Positions 9,333 to 24,865 of a stretch of DNA of 64,000 bases are shown piece by piece. Positions within the stretch are counted from its first letter, which is position 1. Each line of letters starts with the position of its first letter. The notes under the pieces were generated by a model that worked only from the letters and a program-made list of their open reading frames with translations, was not told the origin of the DNA and did not search any database. The DNA comes from Virgibacillus doumboii. Its GTDB lineage: Bacteria > Bacillota > Bacilli > Bacillales > Amphibacillaceae. The stretch lies in assembly GCF_902806455.1 (NCBI RefSeq), contig NZ_CADCWQ010000001.1:992001-1056000 (forward strand), given 5' to 3'. Position numbers and translations under genes: made by a program.

Positions 9333-9575
9333 GGAGGCTGGGACATAACAAAAACGTGTAGGATAAGCAACGAACAATGTATGGATAAAGCGGAGGAAAT
9401 ATACGTAGACTCCTGCGGGAGGAAAGGCCTAGGTGAGATTCGGAGTGCGAAAGCACGGAGAGGCTCGACAGCCGCCCGCGGAAAGCGAAGTATATTTCCG
9501 GAGCGGTTTATGCACCATTTTCCAATTTGTTCGGATATTCCTTTTGATAAAACACTTTTGTACCAGCCTCTTTTT
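9333..9575. repeat. Hairpin-forming repeat between secA and prfB (core shared with the MITE-like family)
   Basis: The ends GGAGGCTGG (9333-9341) and CCAGCCTC (9563-9570) are inverted and the right arm is followed by five T, so the whole unit can fold as a very large terminator for secA. Inside lies the core seen elsewhere in the window. GCGGAGGAAATATACG and GACTCCTGCGGG are on one side, and GCCGCCCGCGGAAAGCGAAG followed by TATATTTCCGGAGCGG on the other. This copy lacks the terminal repeats found on the copies at 19857, 47959 and 62805. Short frames crossing it are not genes. Confidence 0.8.
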
Positions 9576-14710: not shown

Positions 14711-16171
14711 ATGAAGCTTCGCAAGCAACATATCGTACTCATATTATTTGCGGCTCTTGTCTTAGGGTTTGCTGGTGCCTTTTTTGGAATAAAACTGGCA
14801 CAGCCTGATTCAGTAACAGAACTCATAGAGGATACTGTTGAAACGTCACAGCAATCGCAACAAGAGACAGATGAAATACCCGCAAACGTTCAAAAAGTTG
14901 CCCGGGCATACAATATAATAAAAGAAAACTATCTGAATGATGTGGAAGATAAACAATTAATAGAAGGTGCCATACAGGGAATGCTTACATCGTTGAAAGA
15001 TCCATACAGCTCTTATATGGATGCGGAAACGATGGAACAGTTCAATGAAACAATCGAATCCTCATTTGAAGGGATTGGTGCAGAAGTCAGTACGGTAAAT
15101 GGAAAAGTGACGATTGTTGCACCGATTAAAGATTCACCTGCTGAAGAAGCGGGATTACGGCCAAATGACCAGATTTTGAGTGTGGATGGCGAAAGTGTAG
15201 TAGGAATGGATTTATATGAAGCGGTTGAAAAAATCCGCGGGGAAAAGGGCACAGAAGTTGTCCTCGAAGTTCAGCGTGCCGGTGTTTCTGAACCGTTTAA
15301 TGTAACAATTACACGTGATAATATACCATTGGAAACTGTGTATTCAGAAGTGAAAAAAGTTGACGATAAGAAGACCGGTATAATTGAAATCACCACTTTT
15401 TCAGAAAATACTGCTGAACATTTTAATAAACAGTTAAGTGAATTGGAAAACAAAAATATTGAAGGACTAGTAATTGATGTACGGGGTAACCCAGGCGGTC
15501 TTTTAACTGCCGTAGAAGGTATCCTGAAGAACTTTATTCCAAAAGACATTCCTTACGTACAAATCGAGAATCCAGATGGAAAAAGGTCCAAATCCTTCTC
15601 GAACCTCGAGGAGAAAAAACCGTATCCAATCAGTGTCCTTATCAATGAAGGAAGTGCATCAGCTTCGGAAATACTGGCAGTAGCGATGAAAGAAGTAGGC
15701 TATGATGTTGTTGGTAAGACCAGTTATGGTAAAGGTACGGTACAGAAAGCAATACCATTTGGAGATGGCAGTACGATTAAATTGACCTTTTATAAATGGC
15801 TCTCGCCAGAAGGTACTTGGATTCACGAAAAAGGTGTAAAGCCTACGGTGAAGGCAGAGCAGCCTGAATATTATTTTACAAATCCTGTTCAGGTGGAAGA
15901 ACCTATCACATACAATCATACAGGTGAAAAGGTTGAGAATCTGCAGATCATGCTTAAAGGTATAGGATATGACCCTGGACGGACGGATGGTTACTTCAGC
16001 AGGCAAACAGAATCAGCAGTTGAAGCTTTTCAAACGGATAATGATCTCGAAGTTACCGGAGAGGTTAATGGAAAGACTGCAGGTTTAATTGAGTCGCAGG
16101 TAGTTGATAAAGTTCGTTCTGGTAAAGATGACAGGCAAATGGAAAAAGCGCTGAACGTTTTATATGAGTAA
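14711..16171 (+). CDS. ctpB: Carboxy-terminal processing protease CtpB (S41 family)
   Basis: CtpB is a membrane-anchored serine protease; in B. subtilis it cleaves SpoIVFA to trigger sigma-K activation during sporulation. The 486-residue product has an N-terminal anchor (about 6-27), a PDZ domain (about 105-180; GIGAEVSTVNGKVTIVAPI, SPAEEAGLRPNDQIL), and the S41 core with catalytic Ser in NEGSASASEILA and Lys in TSYGKGTVQ. A C-terminal peptidoglycan-binding domain follows (about 400-465; LQIMLKGIGYDPGRTDGYF). A GGGGTGAG site precedes ATG. It lies directly before minJ; swrA, present between them in B. subtilis, is missing. Confidence 0.94.
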   Translation: MKLRKQHIVLILFAALVLGFAGAFFGIKLAQPDSVTELIEDTVETSQQSQQETDEIPANVQKVARAYNIIKENYLNDVEDKQLIEGAIQGMLTSLKDPYSSYMDAETMEQFNETIESSFEGIGAEVSTVNGKVTIVAPIKDSPAEEAGLRPNDQILSVDGESVVGMDLYEAVEKIRGEKGTEVVLEVQRAGVSEPFNVTITRDNIPLETVYSEVKKVDDKKTGIIEITTFSENTAEHFNKQLSELENKNIEGLVIDVRGNPGGLLTAVEGILKNFIPKDIPYVQIENPDGKRSKSFSNLEEKKPYPISVLINEGSASASEILAVAMKEVGYDVVGKTSYGKGTVQKAIPFGDGSTIKLTFYKWLSPEGTWIHEKGVKPTVKAEQPEYYFTNPVQVEEPITYNHTGEKVENLQIMLKGIGYDPGRTDGYFSRQTESAVEAFQTDNDLEVTGEVNGKTAGLIESQVVDKVRSGKDDRQMEKALNVLYE

Positions 16172-16177
16172 GGTATT

Positions 16178-16208
16178 CCGTGGGTGATGCCCGCGGATTT
16201 CCTTTTTA
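16178..16208 (+). terminator. Intrinsic terminator after ctpB
   Basis: TCCGTGGG pairs with CCCGCGGA (one G-T pair) around TGATG, followed by a T-rich tail. Confidence 0.75.
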
Positions 16209-16238
16209 ATTGAGTTTGTGGATAGTAAAGCAGGAAAT

Positions 16239-16258
16239 TATTCGACAAATATCGAATA
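16239..16258. promoter_or_regulatory. Palindrome upstream of minJ
   Basis: TATTCGA and TCGAATA form perfect 7-bp arms around a 6-bp spacer. The left arm includes TTCGACA, the complement of a Spo0A 0A-box. It lies about 50 bp before the minJ start. No regulator can be assigned. Confidence 0.35.
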
Positions 16259-16306
16259 TAGCAGTAATGGAAACAATTATTGCATCTATGCTGGAAGGTG
16301 ATCATA

Positions 16307-17497
16307 ATGGCAGAAGCCTGGTTAATTGAGGCGGCAAAAGGACTGGGAAGATTATTTTTAAACCCGTTATTGTATTGGGTATTCATTCTTGTTTTACTTG
16401 CGGGGTACCGAAGGATACGAAAAGAACGGCTGAACTTCGGTTTTAAGCTGTTCGATGTTTTTTCTGAATGGAAGAATACATGGGCTGTATCCGTTATCTC
16501 AGGGGTTCTCATATCCCTTGCAATCGTTGGTGCGGGGATGGTTTTTTCCTATGAAACGATTCTTCTTTTATGCCTGGTTACGATTGTACTGAGTCTGACA
16601 TTACGATTCACCCTGCTTTCAGCAAGTTATACGGTTGGTATTACATATCTGATTCTTTTGTTTATGCCTTACTTACTGGAATATCAGAATGTGATAGATA
16701 CTGAATTATTTGGGAAAACCAATTTTACGGGTCTTAGTTTATTATTGGCTATCTTTTTATTGGTGGAATCTATACTTCTAAAACGAAGCAGCCGAAATAG
16801 TACGTTTCCCGATTTGGAACTAGGGCGCCGGGGAATCTGGATTGGTTCACACCACATTAAAAAATTAGCCCTAATACCGTTCTTCGTCGTGATACCATCC
16901 GGTTTGATTACACCATTTGCACCGTTCTGGCCTTATTTTTCCTTAAATGGTGGAACATACAGTTTACTTTTGGTACCATTTTTGATTGGCGTCGATCATA
17001 TTGTGAAGGCAAGTCTACCGGAGAAAGCGGCTAATCGTCTTGCCAGATCCATCCAAATCCTGAGCTTGTTTGTACTTTTGTTTGCAGTAGGAAGTATTTA
17101 TATTAGCTGGTTGTCACTGGGAGCTGTTGTGGTTGGGATTATAGGAAGAGAATTTATTAATTACAGGCATCGTTTAGCTGAAAATGAAAAGTCTTCCTAT
17201 TTTAATAGAACGGAGCATGGACTGAAGGTACTGGCAATAATACCCGGAACACCTGCAGACCGGTTAGGAATCCTTGTCGGTGAAACGATTAAAAAGGTGA
17301 ACGGCAGGAAGATTAGCAGCATGAATGAATTCTACTACGCATTACAGGATAGTGGTGCATTTTTCAAACTGGAAATTGTCGGCGATAATGGTGAAGTCCG
17401 ATTTGTGCAGAGTGCGTTATACGAGGAGGACCATCATGAATTGGGAGTTATAACGACAGATAACCGCTACCGGGAAAAACAATCCGAGGCAAACTGA
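16307..17497 (+). CDS. minJ: Division topology determinant MinJ (PDZ membrane protein)
   Basis: MinJ links DivIVA to MinD and so places the Min system at poles and septa. The 396-residue product starts at ATG 16307 after GGAAGGTGATC. It has about seven or eight hydrophobic segments (for example LYWVFILVLLAGY, TYGV/ITYLILLFMPYLL, LLLVPFLIGVDHI, LSLFVLLFAVGSIYISW). A C-terminal PDZ domain spans about residues 300-375 (GLKVLAIIPGTPADRLGILV). Topology, PDZ placement and position after ctpB match B. subtilis MinJ (YvjD). Confidence 0.88.
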   Translation: MAEAWLIEAAKGLGRLFLNPLLYWVFILVLLAGYRRIRKERLNFGFKLFDVFSEWKNTWAVSVISGVLISLAIVGAGMVFSYETILLLCLVTIVLSLTLRFTLLSASYTVGITYLILLFMPYLLEYQNVIDTELFGKTNFTGLSLLLAIFLLVESILLKRSSRNSTFPDLELGRRGIWIGSHHIKKLALIPFFVVIPSGLITPFAPFWPYFSLNGGTYSLLLVPFLIGVDHIVKASLPEKAANRLARSIQILSLFVLLFAVGSIYISWLSLGAVVVGIIGREFINYRHRLAENEKSSYFNRTEHGLKVLAIIPGTPADRLGILVGETIKKVNGRKISSMNEFYYALQDSGAFFKLEIVGDNGEVRFVQSALYEEDHHELGVITTDNRYREKQSEAN

Positions 17498-17520
17498 ACT
17501 TTATAGCTGATTACTTAGCT

Positions 17521-17557
17521 GGCAGTAAGGTACTTAATGTATCTTGCTGCCTGTTTT
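17521..17557 (+). terminator. Intrinsic terminator after minJ
   Basis: GGCAGTAAGGTAC pairs with GTATCTTGCTGCC (11 of 13 positions), followed by TGTTTTT. Confidence 0.8.
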
Positions 17558-17690
17558 TATGTAGAAGGATCTGTAAAACAAAAACGTTTCTATTTCGAAC
17601 CTTATTTAGCTATAAGATGGAAAACACTATACTAACGGTTAAAAACATATAAACTAAAAAAACTGTTTTTTCGAAAAATTAATCGAAAAC

Positions 17691-17733
17691 AGTGATTTGT
17701 ATCACTAGTTAATTGTCCTTATTTTCGTATGAT
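17691..17733 (+). promoter_or_regulatory. CRP/FNR-type site and promoter for the heme-copper enzyme operon
   Basis: AGTGATTTGTATCACT (17691-17706) is a symmetric relative of the FNR/CRP consensus TGTGA-N6-TCACA. TATGAT at 17728-17733 is a good -10. If transcription starts about 7 bp after it (near 17740), the palindrome centre sits at -41.5, the class II activator position. A second inverted repeat, ACTGTTTTTTCGA (17662-17674) / TCGAAAACAGT (17683-17693), abuts the site. The TTG start of the first gene lies 60 bp downstream. Confidence 0.7.
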
Positions 17734-17799
17734 AAAGCCGATCATATCTAATTCTTTATGATTAGCAAACAAAAATGAACAGCTAAGGGGGGCTTTTAG

Positions 17800-18321
17800 T
17801 TGGTACAAACAGTTGCCTGGATTGTCAGTTTAATTTTTATGACTATTATTGCAGTGGTATTTGCATTTGTTGCATGGAAGTCCAGAGAGAAGCGGGAATA
17901 TGAACCGATCAAGAAAAAATGGTATAAAGCCCGGACATTCTATGGTAGTACGTTAATCGTTTTATTGTTGGTAATGACTATTTATACGTTGAGGGAACTG
18001 CCATACAATCAGCCAGTATACGGTGAAGAGAGCAAACCGCCAATTGTTGATGTTGAAGCAATGCAATTTGGCTGGAATATGAGTCAAACTGAATTTGCAG
18101 TTGGTGAACCGGTTGAATTTCATGTAACGAGCAAGGATGTTAATCATGGATTTGGGATTTATGATGAAGAAATGAACATGATTGCTCAAACACAGGCAAT
18201 GCCGGAATATACAAACAAAGTATTTATTACCTTTGACGAACCCGGAACATATGAGATTCTTTGCCTGGAATATTGTGGTGTAGCTCATCATTTAATGAAA
18301 GGAAAAATTACTGTTAAGTAA
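17800..18321 (+). CDS. Heme-copper oxidoreductase subunit II with CuA site (ba3-like)
   Basis: The electron-entry subunit of a heme-copper terminal enzyme. The 173-residue product has two hydrophobic segments (about 5-26 and 49-65), then an external cupredoxin domain. The CuA ligands are all present: His116 (VNHGF), Cys155, Glu157, Cys159, His163 and Met166 (CLEYCGVAHHLM). There is no fused cytochrome c domain, so a separate cytochrome c would donate electrons. The start is TTG 17800 after TAAGGGGGGC. Its stop overlaps an ATG in the subunit I frame. It is commonly annotated as cytochrome c oxidase subunit II; see the finding on subunit I for a different possible role. Confidence 0.9.
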   Translation: MVQTVAWIVSLIFMTIIAVVFAFVAWKSREKREYEPIKKKWYKARTFYGSTLIVLLLVMTIYTLRELPYNQPVYGEESKPPIVDVEAMQFGWNMSQTEFAVGEPVEFHVTSKDVNHGFGIYDEEMNMIAQTQAMPEYTNKVFITFDEPGTYEILCLEYCGVAHHLMKGKITVK

Positions 18322-18335
18322 TGGGGGTGTACGAA

Positions 18336-19802
18336 ATGGAAGCAACTATGAAGTCACGGAATAAGTTAGTTGTATCATACCTGGTAGTTGGTGGAGTAAT
18401 TATCATGGCAATGATGGTATTTGGGATCTTGATGCTTTTGGCACAAGGTGGCGTATTGGATCTGCCGCCAGCTGTGTTTTATCAGTTTTTAACAATTCAT
18501 GGTACCGGGATGGTTGGTGCTGCAGCATTTGCGTCCGCAGGTATTATGTGGTATTTCCTCAGTCAGTATGTTGAACTGTCGAAACGAATTATGAAAGCTA
18601 ATATGGTATTGTTCCTCATTGGGGTATTTATGGTCATTATTGGTGTATTTTCGTTTAAATATGCCAGTGCATGGACATTTTTATATCCGCTGCCGGCACT
18701 TTCCGGAAGTGCTTGGGGAACAATTGGAGCACTGCTCTATCTTGGCGGAATGCTAATTCTGGGGATAGGTTTTCTATTATTTTATCTGGATTCCGGAAGA
18801 GCTATTATAAAAAATTATGGCAGTCTTGCAAAAGGTTTGGGATGGGATGTTATCGCGGGCAAAAAAGCGGAAAAAGATGCCCCGACAGGAACAGTAGTAG
18901 CCAGCACTATGGTAACAATTGTTAATGTTACTGCATTAATAGCAGGAGCAATAGTGCTGATAATGAATATGATTAATGTAATAAATCCTGCATTTACATT
19001 TGATCCATTATTGGCGAAAAACCTGACATATGCATTTGGCCATATTTTTGCGAATGCAATTATTTACATGGCTGTAATAGCTGTATATGAAATTTTACAG
19101 AAACGTACAAATCGCCCATGGAAATCCAATAAAGCATTTTTAATAGCCTGGACAATGTCAACAGCATTTACATTAGTAATTTACACACACCATATGTTAA
19201 TGGATTCGGTAATGCCTACATGGACGCTCGTTCTTGGACAAATTCTGTCATATGCTAATGGGCTGCCGGTACTTGTTGTAACAGCGTATGGTGCCTTAAT
19301 GATCGTTTATAAATCCGGTATTAAATGGGATATGGGTTCCGGAATGATCTATCTGTCCATGTTTGGATGGGTGGTCGGTGTCGTACCAGCGATTGTCGAC
19401 GCAACAATCGTTGTAAACCATGTCATGCACAATACGAAATGGGTACCGGGGCATTTCCACATGTATATGGCACTCGGAGCGTGTGCGATGATCTTTGGAT
19501 TTATGTATTTCCTTGCAAAAGAAGACAGTACTATCAAAACGAATGGGCTGGATAAAATTGCATTTATTTCATTTACACTGGGGATAATCAGCTTGAGCGG
19601 TTCATTCCTGGTATCCGGGGCGATAAGTACACCAAGAAGGTGGGCTACACATATTCCTGAATGGATGGGACCAGCACTTTTTGGATCTGTAGCAGGTGTA
19701 TTGGCTTTGCTTGCGGTAATGATTTTTGTCATTCATTTTATCCGCTATATGATGATACGGAAAAATGTCGTTCCAGAAGCTGACCTGCAGAAATTGGCTT
19801 AA
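18336..19802 (+). CDS. Heme-copper oxidoreductase subunit I, B-family (ba3-like), lacking the active-site Tyr
   Basis: Catalytic subunit with about 12-13 membrane segments, 488 residues from ATG 18336, which has GGGGGTG just upstream. Metal ligands are conserved: His55 and His375 (low-spin heme), His373 (high-spin heme), and His236, His285, His286 (CuB). Overall resemblance is to B-family ba3 oxidases (FDPLLAKNL before helix VI, THHMLMD, VPGHFHMYM). The residue four after His236, a cross-linked Tyr in A- and B-family oxidases, is Asn240 (GHIFAN). That change, with nirK nearby, suggests a nitric oxide reductase evolved from an oxidase; an oxidase cannot be excluded. Confidence 0.88.
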   Translation: MEATMKSRNKLVVSYLVVGGVIIMAMMVFGILMLLAQGGVLDLPPAVFYQFLTIHGTGMVGAAAFASAGIMWYFLSQYVELSKRIMKANMVLFLIGVFMVIIGVFSFKYASAWTFLYPLPALSGSAWGTIGALLYLGGMLILGIGFLLFYLDSGRAIIKNYGSLAKGLGWDVIAGKKAEKDAPTGTVVASTMVTIVNVTALIAGAIVLIMNMINVINPAFTFDPLLAKNLTYAFGHIFANAIIYMAVIAVYEILQKRTNRPWKSNKAFLIAWTMSTAFTLVIYTHHMLMDSVMPTWTLVLGQILSYANGLPVLVVTAYGALMIVYKSGIKWDMGSGMIYLSMFGWVVGVVPAIVDATIVVNHVMHNTKWVPGHFHMYMALGACAMIFGFMYFLAKEDSTIKTNGLDKIAFISFTLGIISLSGSFLVSGAISTPRRWATHIPEWMGPALFGSVAGVLALLAVMIFVIHFIRYMMIRKNVVPEADLQKLA

Positions 19803-19856
19803 ATACTTTTGCTTTTTGTAATAGGCTGCTTTCGTATAAGTTGTTGCTACAGAAAA

Positions 19857-20232
19857 GATATAAAATGTGACGTAACTTTAAAAAAAAAGATTGAGTGCTA
19901 TAACACCGCTACGGAAATACACTTCGCTTTCCGTGGGCGGCTGATGAGCCTCCTTGCTCCTTCGTCGCTGCGGAGTCTCATCTAGGCCTCTGCTCCCACA
20001 GGAGTCTCCGTGTATTTCCTCCGCTGGGTAAGATGAATAACGCTGCACTAGCTGTTATCAAGACAAAAAAACTTTAGATTAAAAATAACAACAGTGTTTG
20101 ATTGTAGCGGAGGCCAGTCGATTCCTGCGGGAAAAGCAAAAGGTTTTCAGAGTGGGGCGAGTAATCGCAGTCCCAATGGCTGAAGACCCCGGAGCGAAAA
20201 TCATACGCATCAGTTACATCGCAGTTTATATC
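19857..20232. repeat. MITE-like element, copy 1 (376 bp)
   Basis: Terminal inverted repeats GATATAAAATGTGACGTAAC (19857-19876) and GTTACATCGCAGTTTATATC (20213-20232) match at 17 of 20 positions. Inside is a hairpin core in which GCGGAAATACAC-type and GTGTATTTCCTCCGC arms face each other (about 19905-20025). A second, less conserved module with TTCCTGCGGG and AAGACCCCGGAGCG follows. No transposase frame exists. It separates subunit I from the membrane-protein gene at 20286; a short frame inside (20098-20295) is not a gene. Confidence 0.8.
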
Positions 20233-20285
20233 AAATACAAGTTTAAAAACAAAAAAGAGTCTTACAAAAAAGGGGGTAATCTGGT

Positions 20286-20840
20286 GTGCGGGTGAAATTC
20301 GGTTTTCTTTTGTTCATAATATTAATCATTCCGACTGTCAGAAACCTGATGGAATCTGTAATGGTTGTACACATGCTCGTGCAAATTCCTTTACTTATCA
20401 TTTCAGGATGGTGGGTGGCAGGCTATTTTCAAAAAAAGTTTCCGGGTTTTTTTGAAAAATGGAATGAAAATGGCATCCCTGGAATAACCCTGGTTGTGTT
20501 CATTACAATCTACTGGATGATTCCCCGCACATTGGATGAAGCCCTTGTTTCGTGGGATGTTGAGCTATTTAAATTTATCAGTTTACCTTTCCTGGCAGGA
20601 ATCCCATTCCGTGACAGTTGGAGAAAACTAGGTTCAGTTGGGAAAAGCTTTATTATTTTTAATTATATTCCCATGTTCGGTTTAATGGCATGGTTATATA
20701 TTGACGCACCTGTCCGTATCTGCAATAACTATTTGGAAGTGGAGCAAAAAGTGCTTGGCTGGGGATTCCTGGCTGTTACAGCAGCCCTTGTTTTATATAT
20801 ACTCCAAAGTGTATTTACTGATCAATCGGATGTCACATAA
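20286..20840 (+). CDS. Membrane protein of unknown function linked to nirK
   Basis: I do not recognise a characterised family. The 184-residue product begins at GTG 20286 after an AAAAAAGGGGG site. It has five or six hydrophobic segments: FLLFIILIIPTV, HMLVQIPLLIISGWWVAG, ITLVVFITIYWMI, FKFISLPFLAGI, FIIFNYIPMFGLMAWLYI and LAVTAALVLYIL. The HMLVQIPLL stretch recalls oxidase-assembly membrane proteins of the CtaG type, but this is weak. Located between the heme-copper enzyme and nirK, it is plausibly an assembly or accessory factor for one of them. Confidence 0.75.
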   Translation: MRVKFGFLLFIILIIPTVRNLMESVMVVHMLVQIPLLIISGWWVAGYFQKKFPGFFEKWNENGIPGITLVVFITIYWMIPRTLDEALVSWDVELFKFISLPFLAGIPFRDSWRKLGSVGKSFIIFNYIPMFGLMAWLYIDAPVRICNNYLEVEQKVLGWGFLAVTAALVLYILQSVFTDQSDVT

Positions 20841-20846
20841 GTTGGC

Positions 20847-20893
20847 AAAAATCCCTGATGAACCTGGATAAGGTTGGTCACCAGGGATTTTTT
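20847..20893 (+). terminator. Intrinsic terminator after the membrane-protein gene
   Basis: AAATCCCTG at the left pairs with CAGGGATTT at the right, with further pairing inside, and is followed by a T-tract. It separates this gene from nirK. Confidence 0.85.
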
Positions 20894-20927
20894 AATGCCA
20901 TACTTTGTTCATAATTTCACATAATTA

Positions 20928-20970
20928 TGTGATGCGTATCACAGGAGCAATAGGTTATTCGAATTACACT
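20928..20970 (+). promoter_or_regulatory. CRP/FNR-type box and promoter of nirK
   Basis: TGTGATGCGTATCACA (20928-20943) is a perfect palindrome matching TGTGA-N6-TCACA. TACACT at 20965-20970 can serve as -10. A start near 20977 would put the box centre at -41.5, the same geometry as before the heme-copper operon. About 100 nt of leader then precede nirK. An oxygen- or NO-sensing Fnr/Crp-family activator is the likely ligand. Confidence 0.75.
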
Positions 20971-21078
20971 TTAAATGAAGATAAGGTAAACCATTCAGTC
21001 AGGCAGATAGCAGGCAGATACCATTTTTGATTGGGTGGTAATTTAACTTATCTACCAATAAGCCATGAGGTGATTGGA

Positions 21079-22164
21079 ATGTTGAGAAGGACAAGAGTTT
21101 ATTCAATTATTTTTCTAAGTGCTATGGTTTTATTGTTATCTGCTTGTGGTGAAGGAAGTCTAGAATCCCAGAAAGACGCTTCAACTGATTTGGAAAACGG
21201 AATTCACAAAGTTAGTGCCGAAGAAGCAGCTGAAACGGAGGTTATTAAGCCGCATCAAGGTGTGAATCAGGAACCTGTTCCGGTGGAGATGACCCGTGAT
21301 GGAAAAGATGTTTACATTAACATGACTGCTCAGATTACGGACATTGAAATAAAGGAAGGCTATACGTATAAAGCCTGGACATTTAACGGAGAGGCACCAG
21401 GACCGCTCGTTGTTGTAAATGAAGGTGATACAATTCATTTTACGTTAGAAAATAAAGACCCGGCAATCCCGCACAGCATGGATTTTCATGCAGTACACAC
21501 AGCCCCTGATAAAGGGTTTGCCGATGTAGCACCAAATGATGAGGGAACATTCTCCTATCAGGCAACAAAGCCCGGGGTGTTTATGTATCACTGTGGGACA
21601 GACCCGATGATTTCTCATATAGCCAATGGGATGCATGGAGTAATTATCGTTAAACCGGCTGATGGCTATCCAACTGATAGTGAAATCGATAAGGAATATG
21701 TAGTAATCCAAAACGAATGGTACCAGTACAATGATTTTGAAAATATGACAAATGGAGAGCCATCCCAGGTCGTATTTTCTACAAAAGCACTTCATAAGGG
21801 ACAGCCGAATACAAACGGAACCGTTAACGCAGTAAAGGATGCACCTTTAACTGCCATGGTCGGCGATAAAGTTCGAATCTACATTAACAATGTCGGTCCG
21901 AATGAGGTAAGCAGTTTCCATGTCGTCGGAACAATATTTGATGATGTGTATATTGACGGAAATCCTGAAAACCATTTTGAAGGGATGCAAACAGTTATGC
22001 TTCCGGCAAGCGGTGGAGCGGTTGTCGAGTTCACAGTAAAAGAAGAAGGACTTTACCCATTCCTCACACATCAAGTTAACCATGCAACAAAAGGAGCAGT
22101 TGGACATATTAAAGTAACCGCTGATGGAAAAGATGATGGAAGTACTGTTGACGAACAACATTAA
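21079..22164 (+). CDS. nirK: Copper-containing nitrite reductase, lipoprotein (NirK)
   Basis: Reduces nitrite to nitric oxide outside the membrane. ATG 21079 follows GAGGTGATTGG and gives a lipoprotein signal with lipid Cys23 (LLLSACGEG), so the enzyme is membrane-tethered as expected in Gram-positives. Two cupredoxin domains are present. Type 1 copper ligands are His132, Cys172, His180, Met185. Type 2 ligands are His137, His171 and probably His335 (QVNHATKGA). Catalytic Asp135 and His281 are also in place (HSMDFH, SSFHVVG). The 361-residue length is normal. Its product NO would be the substrate of a nitric oxide reductase, which makes the nearby heme-copper operon notable. Confidence 0.95.
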   Translation: MLRRTRVYSIIFLSAMVLLLSACGEGSLESQKDASTDLENGIHKVSAEEAAETEVIKPHQGVNQEPVPVEMTRDGKDVYINMTAQITDIEIKEGYTYKAWTFNGEAPGPLVVVNEGDTIHFTLENKDPAIPHSMDFHAVHTAPDKGFADVAPNDEGTFSYQATKPGVFMYHCGTDPMISHIANGMHGVIIVKPADGYPTDSEIDKEYVVIQNEWYQYNDFENMTNGEPSQVVFSTKALHKGQPNTNGTVNAVKDAPLTAMVGDKVRIYINNVGPNEVSSFHVVGTIFDDVYIDGNPENHFEGMQTVMLPASGGAVVEFTVKEEGLYPFLTHQVNHATKGAVGHIKVTADGKDDGSTVDEQH

Positions 22165-22168
22165 TATA

Positions 22169-22207
22169 TGAAAAAACTCCTGTTCAGAATTGAGCAGGAG
22201 TTTTTTT
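22169..22207 (+). terminator. Intrinsic terminator after nirK
   Basis: AAAAAACTCCTG pairs with CAGGAGTTTTTTT around a TTCAGAATTGAG loop. Confidence 0.92.
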
Positions 22208-22285
22208 GGTTTAATATTCCTTCAATATTTTTGGTTCTTTTACAGCAAACTAGTTGTGAAGTATGAAAAAAGAAAGGGAATTAGC

Positions 22286-22825
22286 ATGAAAGGTTATCTA
22301 TTGGGTGTGTGGAATGCCATTGATCCCATTTACTTCAGTTTCACAAGATTACATTACGTACATGATAAAGATAAGAGAAATACATTGTTTCGGGTCAGGC
22401 TGACAAGGTATAAAGGGACTACTGTTTCACTGCAGGATGGAACAACCATTCATAAAAATGATTTACTGATTAAAATACATTTGCACAATGTCAGGGTGAT
22501 AAGTGAAATAAAACCTGTTAAAAGCGACATCAAACGGGCGGTAATAATATATCACAAGATAAAAGATGCCTTACCCTGGCTTTCCCAATACGTTTCGGCA
22601 CACAAAAAAGGAAATAATATAAAAGGAATTATCGGCATCACCACATTGTGCCGCGGGGCCAATCGCCTTGGCTTTGAATTGGTACCAATAAAAAACCCCT
22701 TTTATCGTTTATATAAAAAGGGGACATTTTACCCGATTAATCATTTGTCAAACACTTCAAAGCATCAGGCTCCTGTATATTTATTTATGTCGAAAAAGCA
22801 ATTATTCGAACGATATCTTGTGTGA
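22286..22825 (+). CDS. ykoP: YkoP-like protein of unknown function
   Basis: The 179-residue product starts at ATG 22286, after AAAGGGAATT; a longer upstream frame runs through the nirK terminator and is unlikely. It is basic, with no clear signal or catalytic motif (FSFTRLHYVHDKDKRN, KIHLHNVRVI, LCRGANRLGFELVPIKNP). Similarity to B. subtilis YkoP is by recall and by the neighbourhood: ykoQ- and ykoN-like genes follow. It is convergent with the phosphoesterase gene, with only 2 bp between the stops. Function unknown. Confidence 0.75.
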   Translation: MKGYLLGVWNAIDPIYFSFTRLHYVHDKDKRNTLFRVRLTRYKGTTVSLQDGTTIHKNDLLIKIHLHNVRVISEIKPVKSDIKRAVIIYHKIKDALPWLSQYVSAHKKGNNIKGIIGITTLCRGANRLGFELVPIKNPFYRLYKKGTFYPINHLSNTSKHQAPVYLFMSKKQLFERYLV

Positions 22826-22827
22826 AA

Positions 22828-23661
22828 TTAAGCACTTTTTGAGCGAATGGCAACATCGTGAAAAGTTATTTCGGGCCTGCTTCCGACACGGATATTGAGG
22901 CCGGTTTGACCAAGCCCTTCACTTATATAAAATGGTGTGTCGTTATGCTTATGCAACCCTTTGATTACATTTTTGCGCGCAAGCTTACCCATTTTAACTA
23001 GGTGATATGCTTTTGGATAACAAATCTGTCCACCGTGAAAATGACCTGCCATTAAATAATCGAATGAATAATCCTGCATCTCAAGGACAACTGTCGGATC
23101 ATGGGTTAAAACAATATTGGTTCCCTGTTCAACATGCTGATACGCTAATGGCAGATTGCTGCGGTTCGTACTGTAATCATCTATTCCAATAATGTTTATG
23201 GTTTGTCCATTTACCGAAATTATTTCACTTTCGTTTTGCAGCACTCGGACATCATTTTGCTCCATCAACAATTTAAGTTTATTCAGATCATGACTTTTTA
23301 GCACATAATCATGATTGCCGAACACAGCATACGTTCCATATTTCGGTTGGACGTTGCTTAGCACACGCAAATACGGCAGCAATTTTGGGATCGATCGTTT
23401 TCGGTCCATAAAATCACCAGTTAAAGCAATCATATCAACGGACTCATTCTTCAGCTTATTTTCCAGTTGTTCGGGTGTCAGTGAAATATTTTCAAGGTGC
23501 AAGTCGGACAGGTGGAGAATCGATAGTACCTGGTCTTGTTTTGCAGTTGATTCGGAAGAAATAGTTATTTTGTTTATTTTTATATCAAACGTATTTTTAT
23601 AGGCTTTATAAAGTAGAAAACAAATTACCATTACGAGTATTAAAACGAATGATAAAGTCAT
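22828..23661 (-). CDS. ykoQ: Membrane-anchored calcineurin-like metallophosphoesterase (YkoQ-like)
   Basis: The 277-residue product has an N-terminal membrane anchor (TLSFVLILVMVICFLLYKAY) and a metallophosphoesterase domain. Dimetal motifs are visible: HLSDLHLE, ALTGDFMDR, FGNHDY, VLTHDP, MAGHFHGGQ. Start at 23661 follows GGAGAGGAGAGG; an earlier in-frame ATG lacks a ribosome site. Relatives act on nucleotide-sugar or lipid pyrophosphates; the substrate here is unknown. It is divergent from the glycosyltransferase gene with about 94 bp between starts. Confidence 0.9.
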   Translation of the reverse strand: MTLSFVLILVMVICFLLYKAYKNTFDIKINKITISSESTAKQDQVLSILHLSDLHLENISLTPEQLENKLKNESVDMIALTGDFMDRKRSIPKLLPYLRVLSNVQPKYGTYAVFGNHDYVLKSHDLNKLKLLMEQNDVRVLQNESEIISVNGQTINIIGIDDYSTNRSNLPLAYQHVEQGTNIVLTHDPTVVLEMQDYSFDYLMAGHFHGGQICYPKAYHLVKMGKLARKNVIKGLHKHNDTPFYISEGLGQTGLNIRVGSRPEITFHDVAIRSKSA

Positions 23662-23755
23662 TGCAGCCTCTCCTCTCCTATTAAAAATATAACATGTCTG
23701 GTGTGACTCTATCATTGGTAATTGAAGCCATATCATGTTAGTTGGAGGCAGTAAT

Positions 23756-24865
23756 ATGGAACAGAAGAAAGCATTATTCCTGCCTTTTATGCAAATTCCC
23801 ACCGGACATCACCATGTTGCTGATGCGTTAATCCAGGAAATGCAGCAAGCCCGGGAGGATATGATTTGCGATAAGGTTGATATTTTATCGTATAGTTACG
23901 GACGAATGGAGAAGGTCATTTCGTCTGCTTATTTGACGTGGATCAGACTGTTTCCTGATGTTTATGACCGGATATACCAGCATGCGGCATATCGGCGGTC
24001 ACCGGTTGGAAGACACTATCTGTATGAGACTTTATTTGTGCATTTTTTGAAACGTCTTGCCAATCAGTTACACCCCAATATTCTTTTCTGTACACACGCG
24101 CTCCCGTCCAACATTGCAAGTGTATTAAAAATGAAAGAACAACTGCAATCGATTACGGTAAATGTTTATACGGACTATTTTGTTAACCGGATATGGGGAA
24201 TCGAAGGAATTGATTACCACCTTGTTCCGTCTGTAATGGTTAAGGAAGACTTATTGAAGAAAGGTGTTCAGGAAGAACGGATTTTTATAACCGGCATACC
24301 AATTCATCCTGTTTTTCATTTGGGGAAACATTCGCGGGAATCATCTGAGGAAATTTCCATATTGGTTACCGGGGGGAGTCTTGGCGTTGGGGCTATAGAA
24401 AAGATTTTAGCTTCTTCAACATCTGATAAGATTCATTACTTTGTGCTTTGTGGAAAAAACGAGGCATTATATGAACAATTAGTACGCGAAAAAAGGCAGT
24501 CTGTAACTCCGATTCCATATGTGACTAGTAAAGGTGAAATGAATGCACTATACGATAGGGTCGATGCCGTAGTAACAAAGCCTGGCGGGGTAACGGTCAG
24601 TGAATGTTTAATGAAGCGGAAACCAATATTTGTGTATAACCCACTGCCGGGTCAGGAGAAAATCAATGCCGACAACTTAAAACAATTAGGATTAGTGACG
24701 CCTGTCGAATTACATGATAATTTAGTTGAACAGCAAATCATTGATTTTTTTGCTGATGAAAAAAAGCATGAAAAGTACAATAAGAACGTTGATGCCTATC
24801 ACCAGCATTTGGATGAGAGGTCTCTATCCATAGTGATTAATCAAATACTAAGCCAAAAACATTAG
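23756..24865 (+). CDS. ykoN: GT28-like glycosyltransferase, MGDG-synthase/UgtP type (YkoN-like)
   Basis: Probable sugar transfer to a diacylglycerol-like acceptor at the membrane. The 369-residue product starts at ATG 23756 (TTGGAGGC upstream). It has the N-terminal acceptor domain typical of diacylglycerol glycosyltransferases (LFLPFMQIPTGHHHVADALI). The C-terminal donor-binding domain shows ILVTGGSLGVGAIEKIL, VVTKPGGVTVSE and NPLPGQEKINADNL. Arrangement with ykoP/ykoQ-like genes resembles a B. subtilis cluster. The true sugar and acceptor cannot be read from sequence. Confidence 0.85.
   Translation: MEQKKALFLPFMQIPTGHHHVADALIQEMQQAREDMICDKVDILSYSYGRMEKVISSAYLTWIRLFPDVYDRIYQHAAYRRSPVGRHYLYETLFVHFLKRLANQLHPNILFCTHALPSNIASVLKMKEQLQSITVNVYTDYFVNRIWGIEGIDYHLVPSVMVKEDLLKKGVQEERIFITGIPIHPVFHLGKHSRESSEEISILVTGGSLGVGAIEKILASSTSDKIHYFVLCGKNEALYEQLVREKRQSVTPIPYVTSKGEMNALYDRVDAVVTKPGGVTVSECLMKRKPIFVYNPLPGQEKINADNLKQLGLVTPVELHDNLVEQQIIDFFADEKKHEKYNKNVDAYHQHLDERSLSIVINQILSQKH

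Follow-up and report, generated by a model that had tools for sequence, protein, structure and literature searches.

A norS-norY-orf1-nirK cluster in Virgibacillus doumboii pairs a probable sNOR-class nitric oxide reductase with a copper nitrite reductase

We analyzed an oxidase-like gene system in a 64,000-nucleotide stretch of the Virgibacillus doumboii genome (contig NZ_CADCWQ010000001.1, positions 992,001 to 1,056,000; hereafter the window), in which the genes for a heme-copper enzyme and the copper nitrite reductase NirK form a cluster with the order norS-norY-orf1-nirK and without senC. Judged by its sequence, the enzyme (NorSY) belongs to sNOR, a known but rarely tested class of nitric oxide reductases (NOR), and likely reduces nitric oxide (NO) to nitrous oxide (N2O) in a cluster with NirK; because it sits beside the NO-making nirK, the pair probably turns nitrite into N2O. 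A first-pass annotation of the locus had proposed NO reduction by a 'ba3-like' oxidase that it did not assign to a named class. NO reduction is indeed the activity favored by sequence, but the class already has a name (sNOR or NorSY; type II qCuANOR), and 'ba3-like' is apt only in that the enzyme is oxidase-like, since the close sister of the ba3 oxidases in our trees is the bNOR of the same genome. The observation is real and mostly known; what we add is the cluster without senC, the co-occurrence of sNOR and NirK across a survey of 159 genomes, the presence of an Fnr protein, and a nitrogen-oxide pathway that is truncated.

The metal sites described in the first-pass annotation withstand comparison with reference enzymes. 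Histidines 55, 236, 285, 286, 373 and 375 of NorY, read as heme and CuB ligands, align with histidines in each of the 15 heme-copper enzymes used as references. The CuA motif NH...CLEYCGVAHHLM is complete in the NorS translation, its residues having the ligand roles that we assume for them. Oxidases use a cross-linked tyrosine to split O2. At the corresponding position, four after the CuB histidine in the alignment with the 15 references, NorY has Asn240, as first reported, and Asn is found there in at least 240/240 sNOR: in 120/120 sequences from a search with the window protein (best 120 of 1819 matches) and in 120/120 from a search with a proteobacterial relative (best 120 of 2681). It also occupies this position in 120/120 bNOR (best 120 of 3752 matches), each set including the query's own record. 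Within a residue subset of 32 + 31 sNOR, 42 bNOR, 14 B-family and 5 A-family oxidases, the cross-link tyrosine is present in 14/14 B and 5/5 A oxidases; these same enzymes all have proline after the CuB histidine, where 63/63 sNOR have Ile, Val or Thr. A tyrosine reaching the site from another helix, as in cbb3 oxidases, was also considered: at what we take to be the cbb3 position (on helix VII, six residues ahead of the HH pair), occupied by Tyr in the sole cbb3 reference (L088), Tyr is absent from 63/63 sNOR (Thr in 32/32, Val in 31/31). Conversely, Tyr244, Glu252, Asp355 and Tyr377 (window numbering) occur in 63/63 sNOR, 0/42 bNOR and 0/14 B oxidases, with Glu252 also in 2/5 A oxidases; Tyr244, which follows Asn240 by one helix turn, is found in at least 240/240 sNOR and 0/120 bNOR among the matches listed. 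With ba3-type oxygen reductases, whose K-path residues we take to be Tyr244, Tyr248, Ser309 and Thr312 in ba3 numbering, NorSY has in common the fold, the six histidines, CuA and two of these four residues (Tyr248 and Thr312), whereas Tyr237, the proline after the CuB histidine, Tyr244 and Ser309 are all replaced in NorY. A published prediction assigns sNOR 0 complete proton channels (Table A4 of PMC8756737).

We file the enzyme as sNOR because of its orthology with BAZO_04705, its grouping with a Ruegeria pomeroyi protein, the homology of orf1 and published class tables. A scan of named genomes with a 25-row alignment (A1) returned 92 relatives, 80 of which were kept as named loci. One of these lies on contig40 of Schinkia azotoformans LMG 9581 (L045), and its subunit I open reading frame (ORF) falls at 62823-61342 of that contig, exactly where Heylen and Keltjens 2012 (PMC3475470) place cbaA2 (BAZO_04705), the 'qCuANOR type II' of Bacillus azotoformans. 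NorY is 57% identical to this protein and, by sequence, its ortholog. That paper characterizes type II by Asn replacing Tyr, a subunit I that is short, a two-helix subunit II, and the neighbors SenC and a protein of 4-5 helices. The window cluster resembles the type II cluster (BAZO_04705-04710) in the length class of subunit I, in Asn, in a pair of hydrophobic segments in its CuA subunit II and in an orf1 homolog; it differs in the lack of senC, in a repeat between norY and orf1, and in having nirK downstream, which is reported as isolated in B. azotoformans (PMC3475470). The same source applies the name sNOR to type I, and Bell 2024 (PMC11388526) sets bNOR (formerly CuANOR) apart from sNOR and reports sNOR in Bacillota; the equation of type II with sNOR is our reading of the two combined. 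In Table A4 of PMC8756737, Asn is the residue given for both classes, with Silicibacter and Geobacillus entered under sNOR and Bacillus under CuANOR. The organism once called Silicibacter pomeroyi is present-day R. pomeroyi, whose megaplasmid cluster encodes homologous proteins in the order norS-norY-SCO-orf1 and retains an SCO gene, unlike the window cluster; it is flanked by a formate/nitrite transporter and an Rrf2 regulator, with no nirK in the stretch shown. In the window, as in relatives, the gene for the CuA subunit II immediately precedes that for subunit I. SenC, which often accompanies sNOR but does not belong to the enzyme itself, is not supported as an obligatory neighbor, with no SenC detected by tblastn in 45/80 named loci, some of them short.

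Phylogenetic inference on subunit I agrees with this assignment. In tree 1 (77 rows) the window protein falls within sNOR, together with BAZO_04705 and proteobacterial sNOR, with a Shimodaira-Hasegawa-like approximate likelihood ratio test (SH-aLRT) value of 100; bNOR is recovered at 98, Tyr-bearing B oxidases at 88, and the latter two jointly at 100. In tree 2 (75 rows), from which four cNOR, qNOR and cbb3 rows were removed and to which R. pomeroyi and Thermomicrobium roseum were added, the window protein joins the R. pomeroyi megaplasmid protein at 100/98 and bNOR is supported at 99/97. Of 24 B-family loci, L124 and L132 were excluded from the trees for internal stops, and the trees were built without eNOR, gNOR and Nitrosomonas NorY sequences. 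A joint bNOR + sNOR clade is rejected by the approximately unbiased (AU) test at p 0.0153, a value made too favorable by picking the group after tree inspection, and this rejection suggests that Asn at the Tyr site arose twice. A B-family origin of sNOR was not confirmed, its placement relative to the A and B families having low support: sNOR joins bNOR and the B oxidases at an SH-aLRT of 60 only, with a long-branch warning from the tree program. Other assignments were tried and set aside: bNOR/CuANOR, as the window subunit I lies outside the clade of BAZO_06399; B-family O2 reductase, on account of Asn in place of Tyr; cbb3 (C family), given Thr or Val at the helix VII position; cNOR/qNOR, having Glu instead of Asn and forming a clade that excludes NorY; and eNOR and gNOR, set apart by residue only (Gln or Asp in Table A4 of PMC8756737). 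A T. roseum plasmid (L154) carries, beside a formate/nitrite transporter gene, a deep sNOR-like relative that also has Asn and whose place in the tree is unsure.

The association between sNOR and NirK extends well beyond the window. We surveyed 159 genomes of the window's family, scoring sNOR above 700 bits, near full-length NirK above 170 bits (one with in-frame stops) and bNOR at ≥63% identity, with counts that ignore kinship. sNOR was detected in 30 genomes, NirK in 33 and bNOR in 59; 23 genomes have both sNOR and NirK (24 when two genomes with fragmentary NirK are counted), 7 sNOR only, 10 NirK only and 119 neither (Fisher p 3.6e-14). The association persists inside the 59 bNOR genomes (23/6/8/22 in the same order, p 7e-5). 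qNOR was found in 7/159 genomes, five of them with sNOR, after exclusion of an eighth, short match. In 13/30 sNOR genomes nirK follows on the same strand at a distance of 1.2-2.1 kb. Among the 80 named loci, a set that overlaps the 159 genomes, 11 have NirK in their 6 kb flanks. Ten of these have it downstream and in the same orientation; in the remaining one, from Alkalibacillus (L031), it lies upstream on the opposite strand, a second arrangement that may point to the linkage having arisen twice and could also reflect rearrangement. Directly before norS in this locus is a gene (L031:4513-5379) that we read as CtaA-like (heme A synthase), hinting that some sNOR contain heme A. SenC is present in 35/80 named loci and in 1/10 of those with nirK downstream; orf1 is present in 49/80. 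At E 1e-10 the 80 loci gave no match to qNOR, to NarG, or to the formate/nitrite transporter and Rrf2 of R. pomeroyi, and at ≥45% identity none to bNOR. A literature search judged by title and abstract start listed nothing on a published cluster of nirK and sNOR in either Virgibacillus or Lentibacillus, which is no proof of absence.

Matching promoters, a further element of the first-pass annotation, are also borne out. The sequence GTGATNNNNATCAC occurs exactly twice in the window, at 17692 and 20929, before norS and nirK (0.06 expected; two occurrences in 0/100 shuffles). A site matching at 9 or 10 of 10 positions within 300 nt before norS is present in 21/77 usable homologous loci, compared to 1.2% of base shuffles, and absent from 56/77; three of the 80 loci had no usable region upstream of norS. 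The genome encodes a Crp/Fnr protein of 237 aa that ends in a Cys cluster and whose CEHCGVENC tail presumably resembles that of Bacillus Fnr. No exact palindrome was found in the stretches fetched around the genome's own bNOR. In other phyla, NsrR is reported near the sNOR of N. oceani (PMC3772326), which, like the Rrf2 regulator and formate/nitrite transporter of the R. pomeroyi cluster, speaks for NO reduction.

Table 1. Features of the sNOR-nirK cluster, in window coordinates
Feature	Position	Strand	Basis or remarks
Fnr-type palindrome AGTGATTTGTATCACT	17691..17706	.	~100 nt before norS; contains exact GTGATN4ATCAC
norS, CuA electron-transfer subunit II	17800-18321	+	TTG start, 173 aa; CoxB/COX2 profile matches
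norY, catalytic subunit I	ORF 18321-19802	+	probable ATG start 18336, giving 488 aa; PF00115
Interspersed genomic repeat between norY and orf1	19890..20045	.	genome and window matches
orf1, membrane protein of sNOR cluster	20286-20840	+	184 aa; homologs in other sNOR clusters
Fnr-type palindrome TGTGATGCGTATCACA	20928..20943	.	before nirK
nirK, copper nitrite reductase	21079-22164	+	PDB match and TIGR02376; lipobox-like LLSACG

The two hydrophobic segments of the norS translation that exceed the threshold are N-terminal. The most likely norY start is the ATG preceded directly by GGGGGTG, which also yields the residue numbering of the first-pass annotation. Pfam identifies COX1 in norY (E 6e-45) and COX2 in norS (E 9e-6), and NCBIfam scores lie far under the cut-offs of named oxidase families. 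Absent from the earlier description were the repeat and orf1, the third gene of the system. The orf1 product is 43% identical to its 194 aa homolog in S. azotoformans and 36.5% identical over 156 aa to that in the R. pomeroyi cluster (E 2e-32), has a weak DUF1404 match under the cut-off, and is possibly an accessory protein or third subunit of sNOR. The nirK start lies 1277 nt beyond the end of the subunit I gene, in line with the 1.3 kb first noted. The best PDB match of NirK is nitrite reductase 3x1e (E 4e-154), in alignment with which the motifs that we take to bind copper are identical; its TIGR02376 match (E 1.2e-57) is under the curated cut-off, and the lipobox-like motif in its translation indicates that it is probably a lipoprotein.

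The repeat, ~140 bp long, is found in about 40 places in the genome (43 matches including split pieces; 40/153 candidates scored), and its core occurs four times in the window, also at 9472 (-), 48018 (+) and 63128 (-); its DNA fold is unexceptional (z -1.76). On either side of the cluster lie genes for a PDZ-domain membrane protein (16280-17497) and a YkoP-domain protein (22190-22825), present in 11/80 and 7/80 related loci respectively, which suggests that the cluster occupies a conserved chromosomal site. An Rfam scan of 16000-24000 returned only matches far under gathering scores.

The genome encodes two NarG, one NirK, sNOR, bNOR and two A-family oxidases, with no qNOR match and no NosZ over the cut-off, a truncated pathway (narG, nirK and two oxidase-derived NORs) whose expected end product is N2O. 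Its bNOR (L003, G000:C1:2506470-2510825) comprises a CuA subunit II and a subunit I of 562 aa in which Asn occupies the Tyr site, and an SCO gene lies within 0.8 kb of it. Outside the sNOR cluster, which lacks an SCO gene, the genome has five SCO matches.

From these data we infer a working scheme for NorSY. Electrons would pass from a membrane cytochrome c, the probable donor, through the CuA subunit and a low-spin heme to the heme/CuB site of NorY, which, in the absence of a cross-linked tyrosine, would join two NO into N2O. The NO would be supplied by NirK on the same membrane face, and norS and nirK would probably be co-induced without oxygen through an Fnr-type site each. More tentatively, we suggest that sNOR may represent an oxidase-to-NOR conversion separate from that of bNOR, with Asn240, Tyr244, Glu252, Asp355 and Tyr377 taking over from the lost tyrosine and part of the K path. 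In this Bacillaceae lineage, under Fnr control, it would serve a membrane-anchored NirK as a dedicated sink for NO in a nitrite-to-N2O module.

Several observations weigh against NorSY acting as the NO reductase of this pathway. NirK is missing from 6/30 sNOR genomes (7 if fragmentary NirK is not counted), and the V. doumboii genome itself contains bNOR. In 4/30 sNOR genomes (G038, G046, G051, G054) norY is either cut or interrupted by in-frame stops, for which sequencing error is possible; norY therefore seems dispensable there, which argues against a vital role. Three of these four keep nirK beside norY, and all four have bNOR. Bell 2024 (PMC11388526) terms sNOR 'proposed', and we met no proof from purified sNOR. 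Sedlacek 2020 (PMC6967387) argues that in Nitrosomonas the enzyme may be an O2 reductase of high affinity, and what it cites for NO reduction is indirect evidence only.

A variant of NO reduction, overlapping with it in its odds, is quite conceivable if short of probable: NorSY would reduce NO chiefly for detoxification, with bNOR carrying the respiratory flux from NirK. The presence of bNOR in 29/30 sNOR and 31/33 NirK genomes, the broken or cut norY genes and the loss of two of the four checked K-path residues are all in keeping with it, but the tight nirK linkage and common Fnr-type sites suggest that NorSY works within the nitrite pathway. We regard as improbable that NorSY reduces O2 with high affinity when O2 is scarce and NO abundant, another residue substituting for the tyrosine. 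Tyr244 could in principle serve, and such a role has been argued for N. europaea from low-O2 induction (PMC6967387); it is countered by the lack of Tyr at both the cross-link and cbb3 positions, by the same Asn in purified CuANOR (bNOR) and by the linkage to nirK. Identity with the type I CuANOR/bNOR of B. azotoformans, with which the window enzyme shares Asn, a CuA subunit and an origin in Bacillota, is exceedingly unlikely, as bNOR forms its own clade and pairs with the Tyr-bearing B oxidases, a clade joining it with sNOR is rejected, and the genome's own bNOR is another locus. The bNOR subunit I also differs in its length (~560 aa) and in retaining Ser309 of the ba3 K path.

Assignment of NorSY to sNOR bears on how such organisms are recognized. 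Among the matches listed, public records label homologs 'cbb3-type cytochrome c oxidase subunit I', and KEGG, according to Bell 2024 (PMC11388526), places sNOR under coxA; organisms producing N2O, a greenhouse gas and the probable product of the NirK and NorSY pair, can therefore be overlooked because of oxidase labels. With NO and O2 disputed in print as the substrate of sNOR (PMC6967387), an organism with sNOR beside nirK, common promoter sites and neither qNOR nor cNOR offers a simpler test case than ammonia oxidizers.

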